A model generated the notes under the pieces. That model saw only the letters and a program-made list of their open reading frames with translations, had not been told where the DNA came from and made no database searches. DNA of 64,000 nt from Candidatus Parcubacteria bacterium (GTDB lineage: Bacteria > Patescibacteriota > Patescibacteriia > PEXW01), in the NCBI GenBank assembly GCA_003597955.1, contig QZJU01000006.1, forward strand, positions 36,161 to 100,160, in the 5' to 3' direction. The position numbers and the translations under genes are program-made. Shown piece by piece: positions 2,640-47,940 of this stretch (position 1 is the first letter of the stretch; each line of letters opens with the position of its first letter).

Positions 2640-4076
2640 ATGTCGTTAACTCGAAAAATCGCCCTGAATTCCGCGGTGCAGATTGTGGGCAAGGTTTTAA
2701 GCACCATTCTGGGTTTAATCGTCATTGGCTTAATTACCCGAGCCTTAGGCACGGAAAAATTCGGGCATTATGCGACCGCTCTGGCATTTGTGCAAGTTTT
2801 TGGAATTTTGGTGGATTTTGGTTTGTACATAGTCTTGGTCAAAAAAATTTCCGAAGACGAAGCCAATGCGCCAGCCTGGATTAATACGGCTTTTACACTG
2901 CGGCTTTACACGGCGGTTGGATTTTTAATTCTCGCCCCGCTCATTGCTTTATTCACGGCCTACCCCGGGGAGGTTAAAAGCGCTGTTGCCATTGCCACGC
3001 TTTCGACCCTGGCGATCACGCTTAACCAGGTGTTAACCGGCATCTTTCAAAAAGCCTTGCGCATGGACAGGGTAGCAATCGCGGAATTACTTGGCCGCGT
3101 AGTTTTATTGGGCTTGACGATTTGGGTGGCGAAAGTCCACCCAACCGTTAACTGGGTGATGTTAACCGTGGCCGCTGGCTCGGTGGTCAACTTTATTTTC
3201 ATTTTTGTTTTCAGCCGAAAGTTTGTGAAAATTCGGTTAAACTTGGAAAAAGAAAAGGTGAGAATCATTTTAAAGGAAGGCTGGCCTATCGCTTTATCCG
3301 TGGTTTTTAATCTTGTATATTTTAAAGCAAACACTTTAATCCTGGCCGCAGTCAGGCCCGCCAGCGAAGTGGGCCTGTACGGCGCGGCCAACAAAGTTTT
3401 AGAAGTTTTAACCACCTTTCCCGCCATGTTCGCGGGTCTTTTGACGCCATTGCTGGCCGCCGCCTATGCCGCGAAAGATTTAAACCGATTTAAAACCATC
3501 ATCCAGAAAGCTTTTGACAACCTTTTGTTGTTGGCCACGCCTTTGGCTTTGGGTACGGGATTTGTGGCCCACCAAGTAATGTATTTTGTCGGCGGTTCGG
3601 AATTCACACCAGCCGCGCCGGTATTAACTATTCTTATGGTGGCCACGGCCTGCATCTTTTTCGGAAATTTGTTTGCCAATGCTGTGGTGACGGTGAATGC
3701 CCAGCGGAAAATGCTTTGGGGTTATGGTTCTGTGGCCGTCGGGTCGCTGGTAATTTATTTATTAACCATCCCCCGTTTTGGTTTGTACGGCGCTGCGACC
3801 ACAGCGTTTATAAGCGAATTGACAATTGCCTTGACCGCGGCGTATTTGGTGTTTCGGGCTACCAACATAAAATTGGAATATAAAATTCTATTCAAAAATC
3901 TGCTCGCCTGCCTGCCGATGTTGGGAGCCTTGGCGCTTACCCCGAATTTGCATCTGCTTTTTCGGCTGGCTCTCGCCGCCGGCGCTTACTTGGCGGGGCT
4001 CTGGCTCTTTAGGATTTTTCCCGTTACCATCATGAAGGAGATTTTTTCTCGGATAAACTATGCGCGTCGCGATTGA
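2640..4076 (+). CDS. Polysaccharide flippase (MOP/Wzx-like)
   Basis: About 478 residues with roughly 12-14 hydrophobic helices, an oligosaccharide flippase of the MATE/MOP superfamily. The N-terminus (IALNSAVQIVGKVLSTILGLI, then TRALGTEKFGHYATALAF) is typical of Wzx/RfbX transporters. It would move lipid-linked glycan units across the membrane. I prefer the ATG at 2640 over 2634 because a -10-like TAAGGT (2628-2633) ends exactly 6 nt before it, as in the leaderless genes of this window. It overlaps the next gene by 17 nt, so it is the first gene of a glycan operon. Confidence 0.88.
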   Translation: MSLTRKIALNSAVQIVGKVLSTILGLIVIGLITRALGTEKFGHYATALAFVQVFGILVDFGLYIVLVKKISEDEANAPAWINTAFTLRLYTAVGFLILAPLIALFTAYPGEVKSAVAIATLSTLAITLNQVLTGIFQKALRMDRVAIAELLGRVVLLGLTIWVAKVHPTVNWVMLTVAAGSVVNFIFIFVFSRKFVKIRLNLEKEKVRIILKEGWPIALSVVFNLVYFKANTLILAAVRPASEVGLYGAANKVLEVLTTFPAMFAGLLTPLLAAAYAAKDLNRFKTIIQKAFDNLLLLATPLALGTGFVAHQVMYFVGGSEFTPAAPVLTILMVATACIFFGNLFANAVVTVNAQRKMLWGYGSVAVGSLVIYLLTIPRFGLYGAATTAFISELTIALTAAYLVFRATNIKLEYKILFKNLLACLPMLGALALTPNLHLLFRLALAAGAYLAGLWLFRIFPVTIMKEIFSRINYARRD

Positions 4077-5127
4077 TTTGCAAGCTACGGCCGGCCAGCC
4101 GACTGGCTTTGGCCGGTATCTCAGTCAAATTTACAGGGCGCTGAAAAAGGTTGCGCCTGGGGATGTTGAGCTTGTCCAAATCAACTGGGTGAAAAAGAAT
4201 TTACGCACACCGGCGAGGTTGATCTGGGACCAAGTCGGGCTGCCTTTTGCCGCCGCCTGGAAGCGGCCGGATGTTTTATTCGTGCCGGCATTCAGCACGC
4301 CCATTCTTTGGCCGGGAAAAATGGTGGTGGCTTGCCATGATCTAATCGGCCGCCTCTTTCCAGAGAATTTTTCCAGAACAGCCAGGCTATATTGGCACGA
4401 CATCTTGCCAAAAGCTTTGAAATTTGCGGATCAGGTAATTACAATTTCCAATTCCAGCAAAAAAGACATTGTCAGGCTTTTGAAAATTCCAGAATCAAAA
4501 GTGAATGTAACGCCGCTGGCTGCCGACCCGATTTTTCAGCCCAATCAGTCTGAAGCATCCAAAACCCGCATAAAAAGAAGCTATAATTTGCCTCGGCCTT
4601 TTTGCCTGGCTGTCGGCACAATCGAGCCCAGAAAAAATTTGCCCTTTTTGGTTGAGGCTTTTGCGCGTGCCAAAAGGAATGATCATGATTTGGTAATCGT
4701 TGGCAAGCGCGGCTGGGATGCCGAAAATTTGGAAATGCATATTCGAAAATTGCATCTGCAAGATCGAGTAAAGATCTTGGCATATGTACCGGAAACGGAT
4801 TTACCGGTTTTGTACGCCTCGGCCACAGCTCTGCTGTTTCCGTCTTTGTACGAAGGGTTTGGTTTGCCGATTCTGGAGGCCATGGCGTGCGGCACGCCCG
4901 TGGTTGCCAGCACGGCATCCTCAATCCCCGAAGTAGTTGGCGAGGCTGGACTTTACGCCGACCCCAAAGATCTAAATGCCTGGCAAGAACAAATTTCCAG
5001 GATAATCACTGATTCGGTTTTGCAGAGCAAGCTGCGCGTTGAAGGCTTAAACCGGGCAAGGGGCTATACTTGGGAAAAGACCGCCTTGAGAACTTTGGAA
5101 ATATTTTATAAAGTAGCCAAGCTATGA
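4060..5127 (+). CDS. Glycosyltransferase, GT4 family
   Basis: Protein of 355 residues with the two Rossmann folds of GT-B enzymes. The N-terminal part has DLQATAGQPTGFGRY and CHDLIGRLFPENF. The C-terminal nucleotide-sugar site has GTIEPRKNLPFLVEAF, the helix EGFGLPILEAMACGTPVVAS (EX7E motif) and SSIPEVVGEAG. The family transfers sugars from nucleotide donors with retention; donor and acceptor cannot be read here. It starts inside the flippase gene and its TGA overlaps the next ATG (ATGA at 5124-5127), which indicates translational coupling in a surface-glycan operon. Confidence 0.9.
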   Translation: MRVAIDLQATAGQPTGFGRYLSQIYRALKKVAPGDVELVQINWVKKNLRTPARLIWDQVGLPFAAAWKRPDVLFVPAFSTPILWPGKMVVACHDLIGRLFPENFSRTARLYWHDILPKALKFADQVITISNSSKKDIVRLLKIPESKVNVTPLAADPIFQPNQSEASKTRIKRSYNLPRPFCLAVGTIEPRKNLPFLVEAFARAKRNDHDLVIVGKRGWDAENLEMHIRKLHLQDRVKILAYVPETDLPVLYASATALLFPSLYEGFGLPILEAMACGTPVVASTASSIPEVVGEAGLYADPKDLNAWQEQISRIITDSVLQSKLRVEGLNRARGYTWEKTALRTLEIFYKVAKL

Positions 5128-6554
5128 TTACCGCTTTAAACCTGGGCCGCCAATCAAGATTTTTTTTGGCCAGCGCCTGCCTGGTCATTGCCGTGTCTTT
5201 GGCCTTTTTTGGAAGCCGCGAACCAGTTTTGACCTTGTTCGGGCTTTTGGTTTTAGCCGGTTTTGTTTTGTTTTGTTTTAAGCCTTTTTGGGGAATCATT
5301 GCCGTGGTTTTTCTTTTGCCTTTTGAAAGAATCGGCGCCTATGATTACGCGGGCATTACAGTCCGGCCCAGTCAGGTCGTGGCCATTGTTCTTCTGATCG
5401 TCTGGTTGGTCCAGCGGGCATTTCAGGGCCGGTTGGCCTGGCAAAAACAACCAATTTTCTGGCCGGTTGTGTTTTTTTTAGGCATTAACGCCATTGGCCT
5501 GGCCAATTCCGAAAACCTTCAGCGCTCGGTTATGGTTTTTGGCTTTACGGCCTTTACTTTAATTGTGGGCTTGCTGATCCCGCAGATTATCACCAGCGAG
5601 CAACACTTAAAAATTGCCTATGTCGCCTTGGCCGTAACAACGCTCCTGGTTTCCGCTTTTGGCATTTTTCAATTCTTAGGCGATTTAGCCGGCCTGCCAA
5701 ATTCGGTGACAGGTTTACGCGAGCTTTATACCAAGGCGGTTCTCGGCTTCCCCAGAGTCCAGTCAACGGCTTTGGAGCCTTTGTATTTTGCGAATTTTTT
5801 AATTTTTCCAATCTCTTTATTCGTGGCCAGGCTTTTTGGCAAAATCAAAACCAGCGGCTTGCTGGGCTTGCCCCTGCTTATGGTGTCCGGTCTGGTTTTT
5901 GTTTTAACCGTGGCTCGGGGTGGGTATTTTGGTTTGTTGGCTAGCGTACTCGTGATCTTTTTGCTTTCTTGGCGGCAAATTTTAAACCCCGGCAAAGTTT
6001 TGGCGCTTTTTGCTTCGGGCATAATAATTGCCTTTGCCGCCATGCAGCTTTTAGGCAGCGGTACCGACGCCTTTAGCACGCAAAAATTCGGCCAACATAT
6101 TCAGGCTTTATTCACGGGCGCTTCTTTTGAAGAACGCGTGGCGACTTTTGATTTGGCCAACCAAGCGTTTCACGAGCAGCCTTGGGTTGGTATTGGCCCA
6201 GGGCAGTTCGGGCCTTACGCCTCCATAAACCCATTTTTTGAACCCGAAGACGGCTGGAAGATCGTGAACAATCTCACTTTGGAACTGCTGGCTGAAACAG
6301 GAATTTTAGGCTTATTAGCAATGGCCTGCGTTTTTATTGTAATTTTCTGGCGCAGCCTTCGGGTTTTGAAAACTCCAACCTCGCCAAACTTGCGAGCATT
6401 TTTAATCGGCGGTACAGCCGCCTTAGTGGGCATTTTGGTGCAATACCAAACTTTTTCAATTTTATACATTATGCATGTTTGGGTGGCGATCGGCCTGGTC
6501 GTCGCCGCCCAAAATATAATTTTAAAACAAGCCCATGTCGATTCTGGCAATTAG
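5124..6554 (+). CDS. O-antigen ligase/polymerase family membrane protein (first copy)
   Basis: Protein of 476 residues with about 11-12 membrane helices and a Wzy_C-type region. The large periplasmic loop follows ALFTGASFEERVATFDLA and contains WVGIGPGQFG, the usual signature of O-antigen ligase/polymerase proteins. These join glycan chains to a carrier or polymerise repeat units on the outer face of the membrane. It is coupled to the glycosyltransferase by ATGA and overlaps the next gene by 20 nt. Ligase and polymerase cannot be told apart from sequence. Confidence 0.85.
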   Translation: MITALNLGRQSRFFLASACLVIAVSLAFFGSREPVLTLFGLLVLAGFVLFCFKPFWGIIAVVFLLPFERIGAYDYAGITVRPSQVVAIVLLIVWLVQRAFQGRLAWQKQPIFWPVVFFLGINAIGLANSENLQRSVMVFGFTAFTLIVGLLIPQIITSEQHLKIAYVALAVTTLLVSAFGIFQFLGDLAGLPNSVTGLRELYTKAVLGFPRVQSTALEPLYFANFLIFPISLFVARLFGKIKTSGLLGLPLLMVSGLVFVLTVARGGYFGLLASVLVIFLLSWRQILNPGKVLALFASGIIIAFAAMQLLGSGTDAFSTQKFGQHIQALFTGASFEERVATFDLANQAFHEQPWVGIGPGQFGPYASINPFFEPEDGWKIVNNLTLELLAETGILGLLAMACVFIVIFWRSLRVLKTPTSPNLRAFLIGGTAALVGILVQYQTFSILYIMHVWVAIGLVVAAQNIILKQAHVDSGN

Positions 6555-44314: not shown

Positions 44315-44320
44315 TTATTT

Positions 44321-44360
<40 letters not shown>

Positions 44361-44673
44361 TTTTAGGCATGCAAGTCGAACGAACCTTCGCCCTTCACTG
44401 CGTGAAGAGCTTCGGTCCGCAGGCGCGTTGCAAATAATGCAGCGAGCTTGCTCACCGCCCGTCCTCCGCAGTAGCAGTACTACTGCTATGGAGGATGGAT
44501 AGCCCATTGCGTAGCGATGGGCGGAGGTGAGTGGCAAACGGGTGCGTAACACATTGGTAACCTGCCTCAGTCACGGGGATAACTCCGCGAAAGCGGAGCT
44601 AATACCCGATGGTCTTCTCTGTCTTATGACAGAGCAGTAAAGATGCAAGTCGGATTGAGAGGGGCCTATGGTC

Positions 44674-44709
<36 letters not shown>

Positions 44710-45306
44710 GAAGACGGATAGCGGGCGTGAGAGCGCGACCCGCCTCAGTGGAACTGAGACACTGTCCACACTCCTACGGGAGGCTGCAGTCAAGAATATT
44801 CCTCAATGGGCGAAAGCCTGAAGGAGCGACGCCGCGTGCAGGAAGAAACCCCTCGGGGCGTAAACTGCTTTTCTCTGGGAATAACTTATGAAGGTACCAG
44901 AGGAATAAGGGGCTGCTAACTTCGTGCCAGCAGCAGCGGTAATACGAAGGCCTCAAGCGTTATCCGGATTTATTGGGCGTAAAGAGTTCAACGGCGGTTT
45001 GGAAAGTTCCTGGTCAAATTGCACTGCTCAACCGTGCAACTGCTAGGAAAACTACCAGACTTGAGCCTGGGAGAGGCAAACGGAATTGTCGGTGTAGTAG
45101 TAAAATGCGCTAATATCGACAAGAACACCAATAGCGAAAGCAGTTTGCTGGAACAGTGCTGACGCTTTACGAACGAAAGCGTGGGGAGCGATACGGATTA
45201 GATACCCGTGTAGTCCACGCCGTAAACGATGGGTACTAGGCATTGCGGGATTCGACCCCTGCAGTGTCGGTTAATCAAGCTAACGCATTAAGTACCCCGC
45301 CTGGGC

Positions 45307-45345
<39 letters not shown>

Positions 45346-45346
45346 A

Positions 45347-45384
<38 letters not shown>

Positions 45385-45461
45385 ATAAACGAGGAACCTT
45401 ACCAGGTCTTGACATCCCGGGAAGTCCGCCGAAAGGTGGATGTGCCGCAAGGAACCCGGTG

Positions 45462-45500
<39 letters not shown>

Positions 45501-46115
45501 CGTTGGGTTAAGTCCCCTAACGAGCGCAACCCTCGTGTTATGTTAAAGTATTCATAACAGACTGCCGGCTTTAAGCCGGAGGAAGGCGAGGATGACGTCA
45601 AGTCAGCATGGTCCTCTGACGACCTGGGCTACACACGTGCTACAATGGGGTGCAACAATGGGCCGCGAAACCGCAAGGTGGAGCAAATCCCACCAAACCA
45701 CCCCCAAGTTCAGATTGAGGGCTGCAACTCGACCTCATGAAGCTGGAATCGCTAGTAACCGCGCATCAGCTATGGTGCGGTGAATACGTTCTCGGGCTTT
45801 GTACAAAATAAATGCGCCTGGCAGGTATATTCGCTAAATGGTGAAAGTCCATTTCCCGCAATCAAACGGGATAGCCGAAGGATAGGGCCGTAATTTCCGC
45901 AAGGGACGGCCTAAAGGATCCGAGGTGGCAAACAACAGCCAACAGGGCAAAATAGCAGAGTTTCGACCTATGCGTGTACTATAGGGAAGAAGCCATGAAA
46001 AATCTGCTGCCCCGGATGTTGGAAAAAGTGCATATATTGACCCAGGGAGATCCTGCAAATAAACGACTATTTGTAAGTTTGCAGGAAGTCAGCTGAGTTC
46101 ATAGTAGTTTCGTGG

Positions 46116-46121
46116 TATACT
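46116..46121 (+). promoter_or_regulatory. Extended -10 inside the intron
   Basis: TGGTATACT, 11 nt before the ATG at 46133; same motif and spacing as for the free-standing endonuclease at 15583. Confidence 0.45.
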
Positions 46122-46132
46122 CACACCGAGAT

Positions 46133-46582
46133 ATGCCAAGAATCGAAGGAACGAATTCTATATTACATCCACAATACATTGTCGGTTTTGTTGATGGCGA
46201 AGGTTGTTTTTGCGTCATCATAAGCAAACACAATACTTTAAAGTCAAAAAAGGAAGTGCGTTGCATCTTTGAAATAGAAGTTCGAGAAGACGATAAGCCA
46301 ATCCTAGAAGCAATTAAAAAAACTTTAGGCTGTGGTAAAATTTATCTTCTTGATTATACTCGCTATTCAAAATGGCGTGCACACGCAAAATTTAAAGTCA
46401 GTAATTTACCAGAGATTATTAATAAAATCATTCCTTTTTTTGAAAAAAATCAATTAAAAGCTAAAAAGCGAAAGAGCTTTGAAATTTTCAAGAAGATCGC
46501 CTTAATGATTCAAAATAAGGATCATTTACACTTGAAAGGCATTGAAAAAATAGAAGCTTTACGAAATAAAATGAATAAATAG
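46133..46582 (+). CDS. Intron-encoded LAGLIDADG protein
   Basis: 149 residues from ATG 46133 (MPRIEGTNSI). One LAGLIDADG helix, YIVGFVDGEGCF (about residues 15-26), then a typical beta-rich half (KEVRCIFEIEVREDDKPILE, KTLGCGKIYLLDY). With a single motif it should work as a homodimer on a near-palindromic site; it could also be an RNA maturase. The intron has no reverse transcriptase. The stop codon lies 5 nt before intron domain V. AT-rich compared with surrounding DNA. Confidence 0.85.
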   Translation: MPRIEGTNSILHPQYIVGFVDGEGCFCVIISKHNTLKSKKEVRCIFEIEVREDDKPILEAIKKTLGCGKIYLLDYTRYSKWRAHAKFKVSNLPEIINKIIPFFEKNQLKAKKRKSFEIFKKIALMIQNKDHLHLKGIEKIEALRNKMNK

Positions 46583-46783
46583 AAACTCGCTGGATGCGGA
46601 AAAGCCGCACGTCCAGTGGGGAGGAACATTATAGTCAATGATTCCAATCACCGCCCGTCACGCCAAGAGAGTCGGAAATACCTGAAGCCCCCGCATTAGC
46701 GGGGATCAAGGTAGAGTCGATGATAGGGGCGAAGTCGTAACAAGGCATCGGTAGCGGAAGCTGTCGATGGATCACCTCCTTTC

Positions 46784-47250
46784 TAGGGAGATACGGTGTC
46801 GTCCCGCCAAATGGTGGGACACATTATAGTCGTGCTGTCAGTTTAGATTGCCTTCGGGGCAATATAAACTGACAACTATTGCCTCGTGAAACGAGGCATT
46901 GATAAGTTCTATTTTTACTTCTCTTACCACTCTTAAGTTGTTAACATGAGCCGTCACGCATTTTATAAAGGCTGGCTATCTGCGGGATGGCGCCCCGCCT
47001 TTAGTCTTTCATTCGAAAATAACACCTTGAATTGCGGGGGCAAGGGGCTGGCCTATGACGGCCGGTCTTTTTTTGATAAATTATTATCACTTAGGTTGGG
47101 GCGATTGTATTTTCGATGAGTTCCTGCGGTGGGCGACTAGTTCCGATTCGCCAAACAGCAAATCGAGGATCCCGCCGAACGGCGGGAGTTACCCGCCCGA
47201 ACGACTGAAGTCGTTCAGTCGGACGGTGAGTGTTCACCCCGTGCCAAAGG
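46784..47250 (+). other. 16S trailer and spacer
   Basis: Hairpins GTCCCGCCAAATGGTGGGAC, GTCAGTTTA...TAAACTGAC (loop TTCG) and GCCTCGTGAAACGAGGC, then the 3' strand of the processing stem (46923-46945). After it come GC-rich palindromes including the CCCGAACGACTGA repeat (about 47190-47226). No ORF I can support. Confidence 0.6.
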
Positions 47251-47519: not shown

Positions 47520-47626
47520 GGGTGATTAGCTCAGATGGTTAGAGCGTCACATTGACATTGTGAAGGTCGGAGGTTTCCGGCAAAGCCGGACCCGGCTCTG
47601 CCGGGCGATTCCTGAGTCGCCCACCA
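47520..47626 (+). pseudogene. tRNA-Val(GAC) copy with a 30-nt double-hairpin insertion in the T loop
   Basis: All parts of a 77-nt tRNA-Val are present (acceptor GGGTGAT/GTCGCCC with G-U pairs, anticodon loop TTGACAT, CCA), but 30 nt (47576-47605) interrupt the T loop: TCCGGC-AAA-GCCGGA followed by CCCGGC-TCT-GCCGGG. The T stem also has two mismatches. Probably a pseudogene; a functional hairpin-bearing tRNA cannot be excluded. Confidence 0.7.
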
Positions 47627-47756: not shown

Positions 47757-47833
47757 GGGCGGTTAGCTCAGCTGGTTAGAGCGTTACATTGACATTGTAA
47801 AGGTCGGAGGTTCAAATCCTCCACCGCCCACCA
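47757..47833 (+). tRNA. tRNA-Val(GAC)
   Basis: Intact 77-nt tRNA: acceptor GGGCGGT/ACCGCCC, anticodon loop TTGACAT, T arm GGAGG-TTCAAAT-CCTCC, encoded CCA. Confidence 0.95.
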
Positions 47834-47840
47834 TTATTTA

Positions 47841-47940
47841 TAGCTCAGCTGGTTAGAGCGTTACATTGACATTGTAAAGGTCGGAGGTTTCCGGCAAAGC
47901 CGGACCCGGCTCTGCCGGGCAAATCCTCCACCGCCCACCA
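47841..47940 (+). pseudogene. 5'-truncated tRNA-Val copy with the same insertion
   Basis: From TAGCTCAGCTGG to CCA it is identical to the intact tRNA-Val, except that the 5' acceptor strand is missing (ATTATTTA instead). The identical 30-nt double hairpin (47890-47919) sits in the T loop at the same place as in copy 1. Confidence 0.75.

Follow-up and report, generated by a model that had tools for sequence, protein, structure and literature searches.

Group II introns with a LAGLIDADG homing endonuclease (LHE) are already known from the decoding-site segment of bacterial 16S rRNA genes. The rns-1396 family was first reported in Thiomargarita (Salman 2012, cited in PMC13190283) and is described in the accessible text of Liu 2026 (PMC13190283) as group IIC, with a single-motif LHE in domain IV, a linker in all members and no EBS2. 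The class of the Thiomargarita relative is disputed, being IIB1 in PMC4424553 and PMC4853749 and IIC in the accessible part of PMC13190283. At 16S position 1400 (16IS9) of CPR bacteria, the accessible text of Tsurumaki 2024 (PMC11270868) gives 53 group II-like inserts, 39 of them with an LHE, and cites Brown 2015 for the removal of such inserts from transcripts. Mitochondrial IIB1 rRNA introns (Li 2011, as cited in accessible parts of PMC4424553 and PMC13190283) carry 1–33 extra nt at their 5′ ends and LAGLIDADG ORFs, are without EBS2, and their linkers go with branch-point loss. The intron C.te.I1 of C. tetani is spliced 8 nt upstream of GUGCG and self-splices by hydrolysis (PMC3919590). Several group II lineages are known to depart from the rule that GUGYG lies directly at the splice site (PMC4424553).

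The window analysed here is a 64,000 nt stretch of a Candidatus Parcubacteria genome (contig QZJU01000006.1) and contains one 16S gene, on the plus strand, as are all the parts of its insert described below. The bacterial SSU model (SSU_rRNA_bacteria, Rfam RF00177) matches from 44315, is broken by an 843 nt insert (45806–46648) after E. coli position 1396, and the 3′ exon begins again at 46649. The 5′ exon (44315–45805) ends in TTGTACA, and the junctions read TTGTACA/AAATAAATGCG...GATTCCAAT/CACCGCCCG, where slashes mark splice junctions. The 3′ exon (46649–46787, end approximate) is matched by RF02542 to 46769 and includes the anti-Shine-Dalgarno sequence CACCTCCTTT. In L005 and L009, two genomes from the same family, the matching place reads TTTGTACA/CACCGCCCG without interruption, and these clean empty sites make the boundaries of the insert independent of any distant reference. 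The insert and the adjoining exon each match once in the 0.99 Mb genome (98.5% complete), and no second, intact 16S gene was seen by these matches.

Domains I–III and the start of domain IV of the insert occupy 45817–46135 (limits approximate, from RNAalifold and RF01998). The model group-II-D1D4-1 (RF01998) scores 36.0 bits at 46052–46151, against a cut-off of 35. For 12 introns of the same type (type A, below), a consensus fold was made over the initial 330 nt; it has 74 pairs, 47 of them with compensatory changes, and lets the helix that closes domain I start at 45817, past AAATAA and AUGCG. Domain V (46585–46621) scores 56.1 bits with the domain V model R1. Among 16 relatives, 96% of the domain V cells are paired, two-sided changes occur in eight of 14 pairs, and the covariation far exceeds that of slid versions of the same structure. 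The catalytic triad CGC (46588–46590) is invariant in the 16 seed sequences, and a two-nt bulge and a covarying helix are present beside it. This triad is associated with group IIC. Domain VI (46622–46648) ends in AAU and has an unpaired adenosine, A46641, 7 nt before the 3′ splice site.

Since group II models match, no group I model does (zero matches of the Rfam group I models, even at E ≤ 10), and both domain V and the 5′ domain covary, the insert is read as group II. Group I introns are the usual home of LAGLIDADG proteins, and bacterial rRNA has known inserts that are excised by RNase, so a group I intron, or excision by RNase with no ligation of the exons, was weighed as well; the model searches and the covarying group II domains speak against the former, and the EBS1 matches described below imply exon ligation and so speak against the latter, leaving both very improbable. 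With a probability of about 0.87, the insert belongs to the group II introns of the rns-1396/16IS9 kind, has IIC-like features, and is predicted from its sequence to be self-splicing and to home by a LAGLIDADG protein. Against this reading, the Thiomargarita relative is assigned in older papers to IIB1, not IIC (PMC4424553, PMC4853749), and the Intron_gpII model of domains V and VI (RF00029) matches 46585–46648 with 30.9 bits (E = 7e-4), under its gathering cut-off of 40.

The first-pass annotation, made from the letters of the window, had described a 16S gene of a CPR-like host split by 843 nt of group II intron, with the CGC triad, the bulged adenosine 7 nt from the end, extra nucleotides at the 5′ end and a LAGLIDADG ORF without a reverse transcriptase. 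All of this agrees with the results given here. Its suggestion of hydrolytic splicing or an altered first step is plausible. Its view of the bacterial combination as new or rare found no support, since CPR cases were published in 2024 (PMC11270868) and the rns-1396 family in 2026 (PMC13190283). By the published definitions in the accessible text of these two papers, the window intron fits rns-1396/16IS9 on every feature tested. It shares with rns-1396 the insertion after 1396, the single-motif LHE in domain IV, the 5′ linker and conserved IBS1/IBS3, and with the CPR 16IS9 introns the type of host, the 16S segment, a LAGLIDADG_1 protein and the lack of a reverse transcriptase; DNA homing was proposed there too. 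The rns-1396 hosts in the accessible part of PMC13190283 are Thiotrichaceae only, whereas the present host belongs to the CPR, which adds CPR members to a family listed only from Thiotrichaceae in that 2026 survey. A contig scan for Thiotrichaceae relatives found three loci, none of them from Thiotrichaceae. What is new here is a comparison of registers, EBS1, linkers and branch adenosine across 81 introns. The accessible text of PMC11270868 was found to hold no discussion of 5′ linkers, splice registers, EBS1 or the branch point, that of PMC13190283 gives no branch-point status for rns-1396, and in the running text of open papers (figures and supplements apart) no publication was found on a register series with EBS1 matching, the CPR linker range or the retained branch point.

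Relatives were gathered with the domain V model and the LHE protein, and are spread over several CPR classes. In a sample of 379 genomes from across the phylum the domain V model matches 37 (E ≤ 0.05), and in one other class it matches 59 of 373 (E ≤ 0.01). The comparison set holds the 81 introns readable with both exons, with duplicates removed and the window intron included. Their exon ends span about seven registers (1395–1402), as read from exon sequence alone and so ambiguous by one nt in some introns. In order, these are 1395 (type D, 15 introns), 1396 (type A, 13 introns including that of the window), 1397 (type C, 12), 1398 (type B, 21), 1399 (three), about 1400–1401 (the single intron L048) and 1402 (type E, 16). 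By contrast, 16IS9 is treated as one site in the accessible text of PMC11270868. L048 (2382–3310 of JALWWR010000072.1, labelled Thermodesulfatator) is a related LHE group II intron on a contig carrying 16S and 23S; its domain VI is very short and the contig coverage is low, so that contamination and transfer are both possible. Some placements differ between the RNA tree and the LHE tree. The RNA part of L022, for example, groups with type B introns and its endonuclease with those of type A, probably through an ORF swap between introns. A recent register shift in L022 was considered and dropped, because such module exchange explains the discord equally well.

The EBS1 sequence was sought 130–260 nt into each intron, as a six-nt complement of that intron's own exon end with at most one G-U pair. 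It fits in 73 of 81 introns, compared with 22.7 on average and 32 at most when introns and exons are permuted, and about 13 for shuffled sequence. Each type has an EBS1 appropriate to its own register: GUGUAC for GUACA/C in type A (45974–45979 in the window), GGUGUGU for ACACA/CC in type B, GAGUAC for GUACUC/ or GUGUAC for GUACAC/ in type C, GUACAA for UUGUAC/ in type D, and GCGGU for ACCGC/ in type E. In two type D hosts (L119 and L139) the exon variant UUGCAC is paired with an EBS1 of GUGCAA. The comparison shows what appears to be a sliding of these introns along the decoding-site sequence with re-matching of EBS1 to the exon. It is a well-sampled case in which the splice register in a near-invariant rRNA has changed by one to seven nt via changes in EBS1. 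In types A (12/12), B (16/19) and E (15/15), the base adjoining EBS1 can form a pair with position +1 of the 3′ exon as well. In types C (3/11) and D (0/15) it mostly does not, and there the EBS1 pairing takes in one more base of the 5′ exon. Pairing of the EBS1 loop with the 5′ exon only is a criterion of group IIC (PMC4424553).

As EBS1 tracks the exon end across registers, the 5′ splice site is placed at the exon end and the sequence preceding the GUGYG-like motif is taken as intronic. In the window intron, GUGYG is not directly at the splice site; its counterpart AUGCG (45812–45816) sits six nt inside, behind the linker AAATAA (45806–45811). EBS1 would pair across the exon junction, with GUACA on the 5′ exon side and C1397 on the 3′ exon side, fixing the splice site at A1396/C1397, six nt upstream of AUGCG, with the A/U-rich linker looped out. 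Domain V would then catalyse release of the 5′ exon and its ligation to CACCGCCCG, giving an unbroken 16S with the junction TTGTACACACCGCCCG if excision is exact. Such excision with exon ligation is suggested by the pairings. Canonical group II introns start at GUGYG, and splicing at AAATAA/AUGCG would leave six nt in the mature 16S, but EBS1 follows the exon end over seven registers and not the linker end, linkers in the family reach 53 nt and some contain hairpins, and at least six additional nt in the decoding centre are expected to be harmful; splicing at the consensus site is therefore a highly improbable alternative. A proposal that the linker is retained exon sequence was likewise ruled out by the EBS1 register matching.

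Linkers of 4–53 nt are found in 69 of 81 introns, with the placement of the GUGYG-like motif approximate in the most divergent ones, while all 12 type C introns have a linker of 0–1 nt. Short linkers are 93% A+T, compared with 57% in the intron body, and several long linkers have a hairpin inside. C.te.I1, which reacts by hydrolysis in vitro, resembles these introns as a bacterial group II intron spliced upstream of GUGCG, with altered EBS1-IBS1 pairing; it differs in lying in a surface-layer protein gene and not in rRNA, and in serving alternative splicing (PMC3919590). In a first RNA tree, type C appeared paraphyletic to type D, and a repeated origin of the linker was considered. No such claim is made, as type C as one clade is not rejected by the AU test (p = 0.44), and a single loss or gain of the linker suffices.

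An adenosine corresponding to A46641 is present at position −8 in 79 of 81 introns, including all 69 with linkers, and the two without it, both type C, have an A at −9. The four bases after A(−8) can pair with the strand just past domain V in 75 of 81 introns, using many pair types. The mitochondrial IIB1 introns share the 5′ extra nucleotides and LAGLIDADG ORFs of this family but lose the branch-point motif, and the work on them linked 5′ insertions, branch-point loss, EBS2 loss and LAGLIDADG mobility as one set. With its many members, the bacterial family is a natural test of this link, in which an LHE occurs with a linker and (type C) without one, and the branch adenosine is always there. 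Because linker and adenosine coexist, and type C has an LHE and no linker, linker, branch-point loss and LHE do not form a unit here, and linker gain is separated from branch-point loss in rRNA introns of this family.

Group IIC ribozymes have a preference for hydrolysis that holds without their protein. Their splicing is almost exclusively hydrolytic according to the accessible part of PMC7161350, and on this behaviour, together with that of the C. tetani intron with its shifted 5′ site, the 5′ exon of the window intron is judged somewhat more likely to be released by hydrolysis than by branching. The conserved A(−8) and the covarying basal helix beside it count against a first step that is purely hydrolytic. 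Branching, in which A46641 would attack the A1396/A45806 phosphate six nt upstream of the consensus 5′ end and form a lariat joint away from the usual G1, is favoured by the conservation of this adenosine and its adjoining 4 bp helix in elements that need no lariat to move by DNA homing. Set against it are the linker introns tested to date, which are hydrolytic (C. tetani, PMC3919590, where the fungal rRNA introns of Li 2011 are cited too), the preference of IIC ribozymes for hydrolysis, and the chance that the A is kept for docking of domain VI; branching is accordingly a possible route, though not the preferred one. A wider proposal can be made only tentatively: that introns with linkers of 4–53 nt still branch, with the lariat joint well upstream of the GUGYG-like motif, and that a linker can be gained, branching lost and DNA homing adopted as separable steps in the same family that slid through about seven registers by re-matching EBS1.

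The ORF in domain IV (46112–46582 from a GTG start, or from ATG at 46136) matches LAGLIDADG_1 (PF00961, E = 1.8e-23) and has one motif; the LHE is 148 aa long. Sequence comparison with proteins of solved structure returns LAGLIDADG homing endonucleases, with E-values down to 1e-45 and I-PanMI and I-SmaMI among the best. In the LHE tree, the endonucleases of the collected introns form one group (support 100/99), and the acidic residue of the LAGLIDADG motif is E in 57 of 57 group II LHEs. Of 12 CPR LHEs from other, mostly 23S, loci, 11 fall outside this group; the twelfth (L047) is a long branch within it. Such a single-motif protein, expected to be a homodimer, would cut an intron-less 16S gene at the decoding-site sequence, and repair of the cut gene would copy the intron in, a DNA homing pathway that does not involve a reverse transcriptase and is the likely one for the window intron. 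An LHE-like ORF is present in 59 of 81 introns. The 22 without an intact ORF raise the prospect that the window intron, too, is a dead remnant that has lost splicing and merely persists, but it has an intact ORF, an intact EBS1 and domain V, and its branch A, and the exon and insert match once each in the 98.5% complete genome, with no intact second 16S seen, making this a most unlikely reading.

The 23S and 5S genes of the source genome lie on a contig other than that of the 16S gene. The 23S gene (L150, contig C2 of genome G000, 2844–6210), which is followed by 5S, spans 3367 nt against a model of 2925 positions, and this length indicates that it probably carries an insert, one for which none of the Rfam intron families reaches its curated cut-off. 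Downstream of the 16S gene, an intact tRNA-Val (47757–47833) is flanked by two tRNA-Val-like copies (47522–47625 and 47841–47938), the T arms of which are each interrupted by the GC-rich palindrome GGCAAAGCCGGACCCGGCTCTGCC, exact in both. ARAGORN calls the intact copy only. Two further near-copies of this palindromic element are found elsewhere in the genome.
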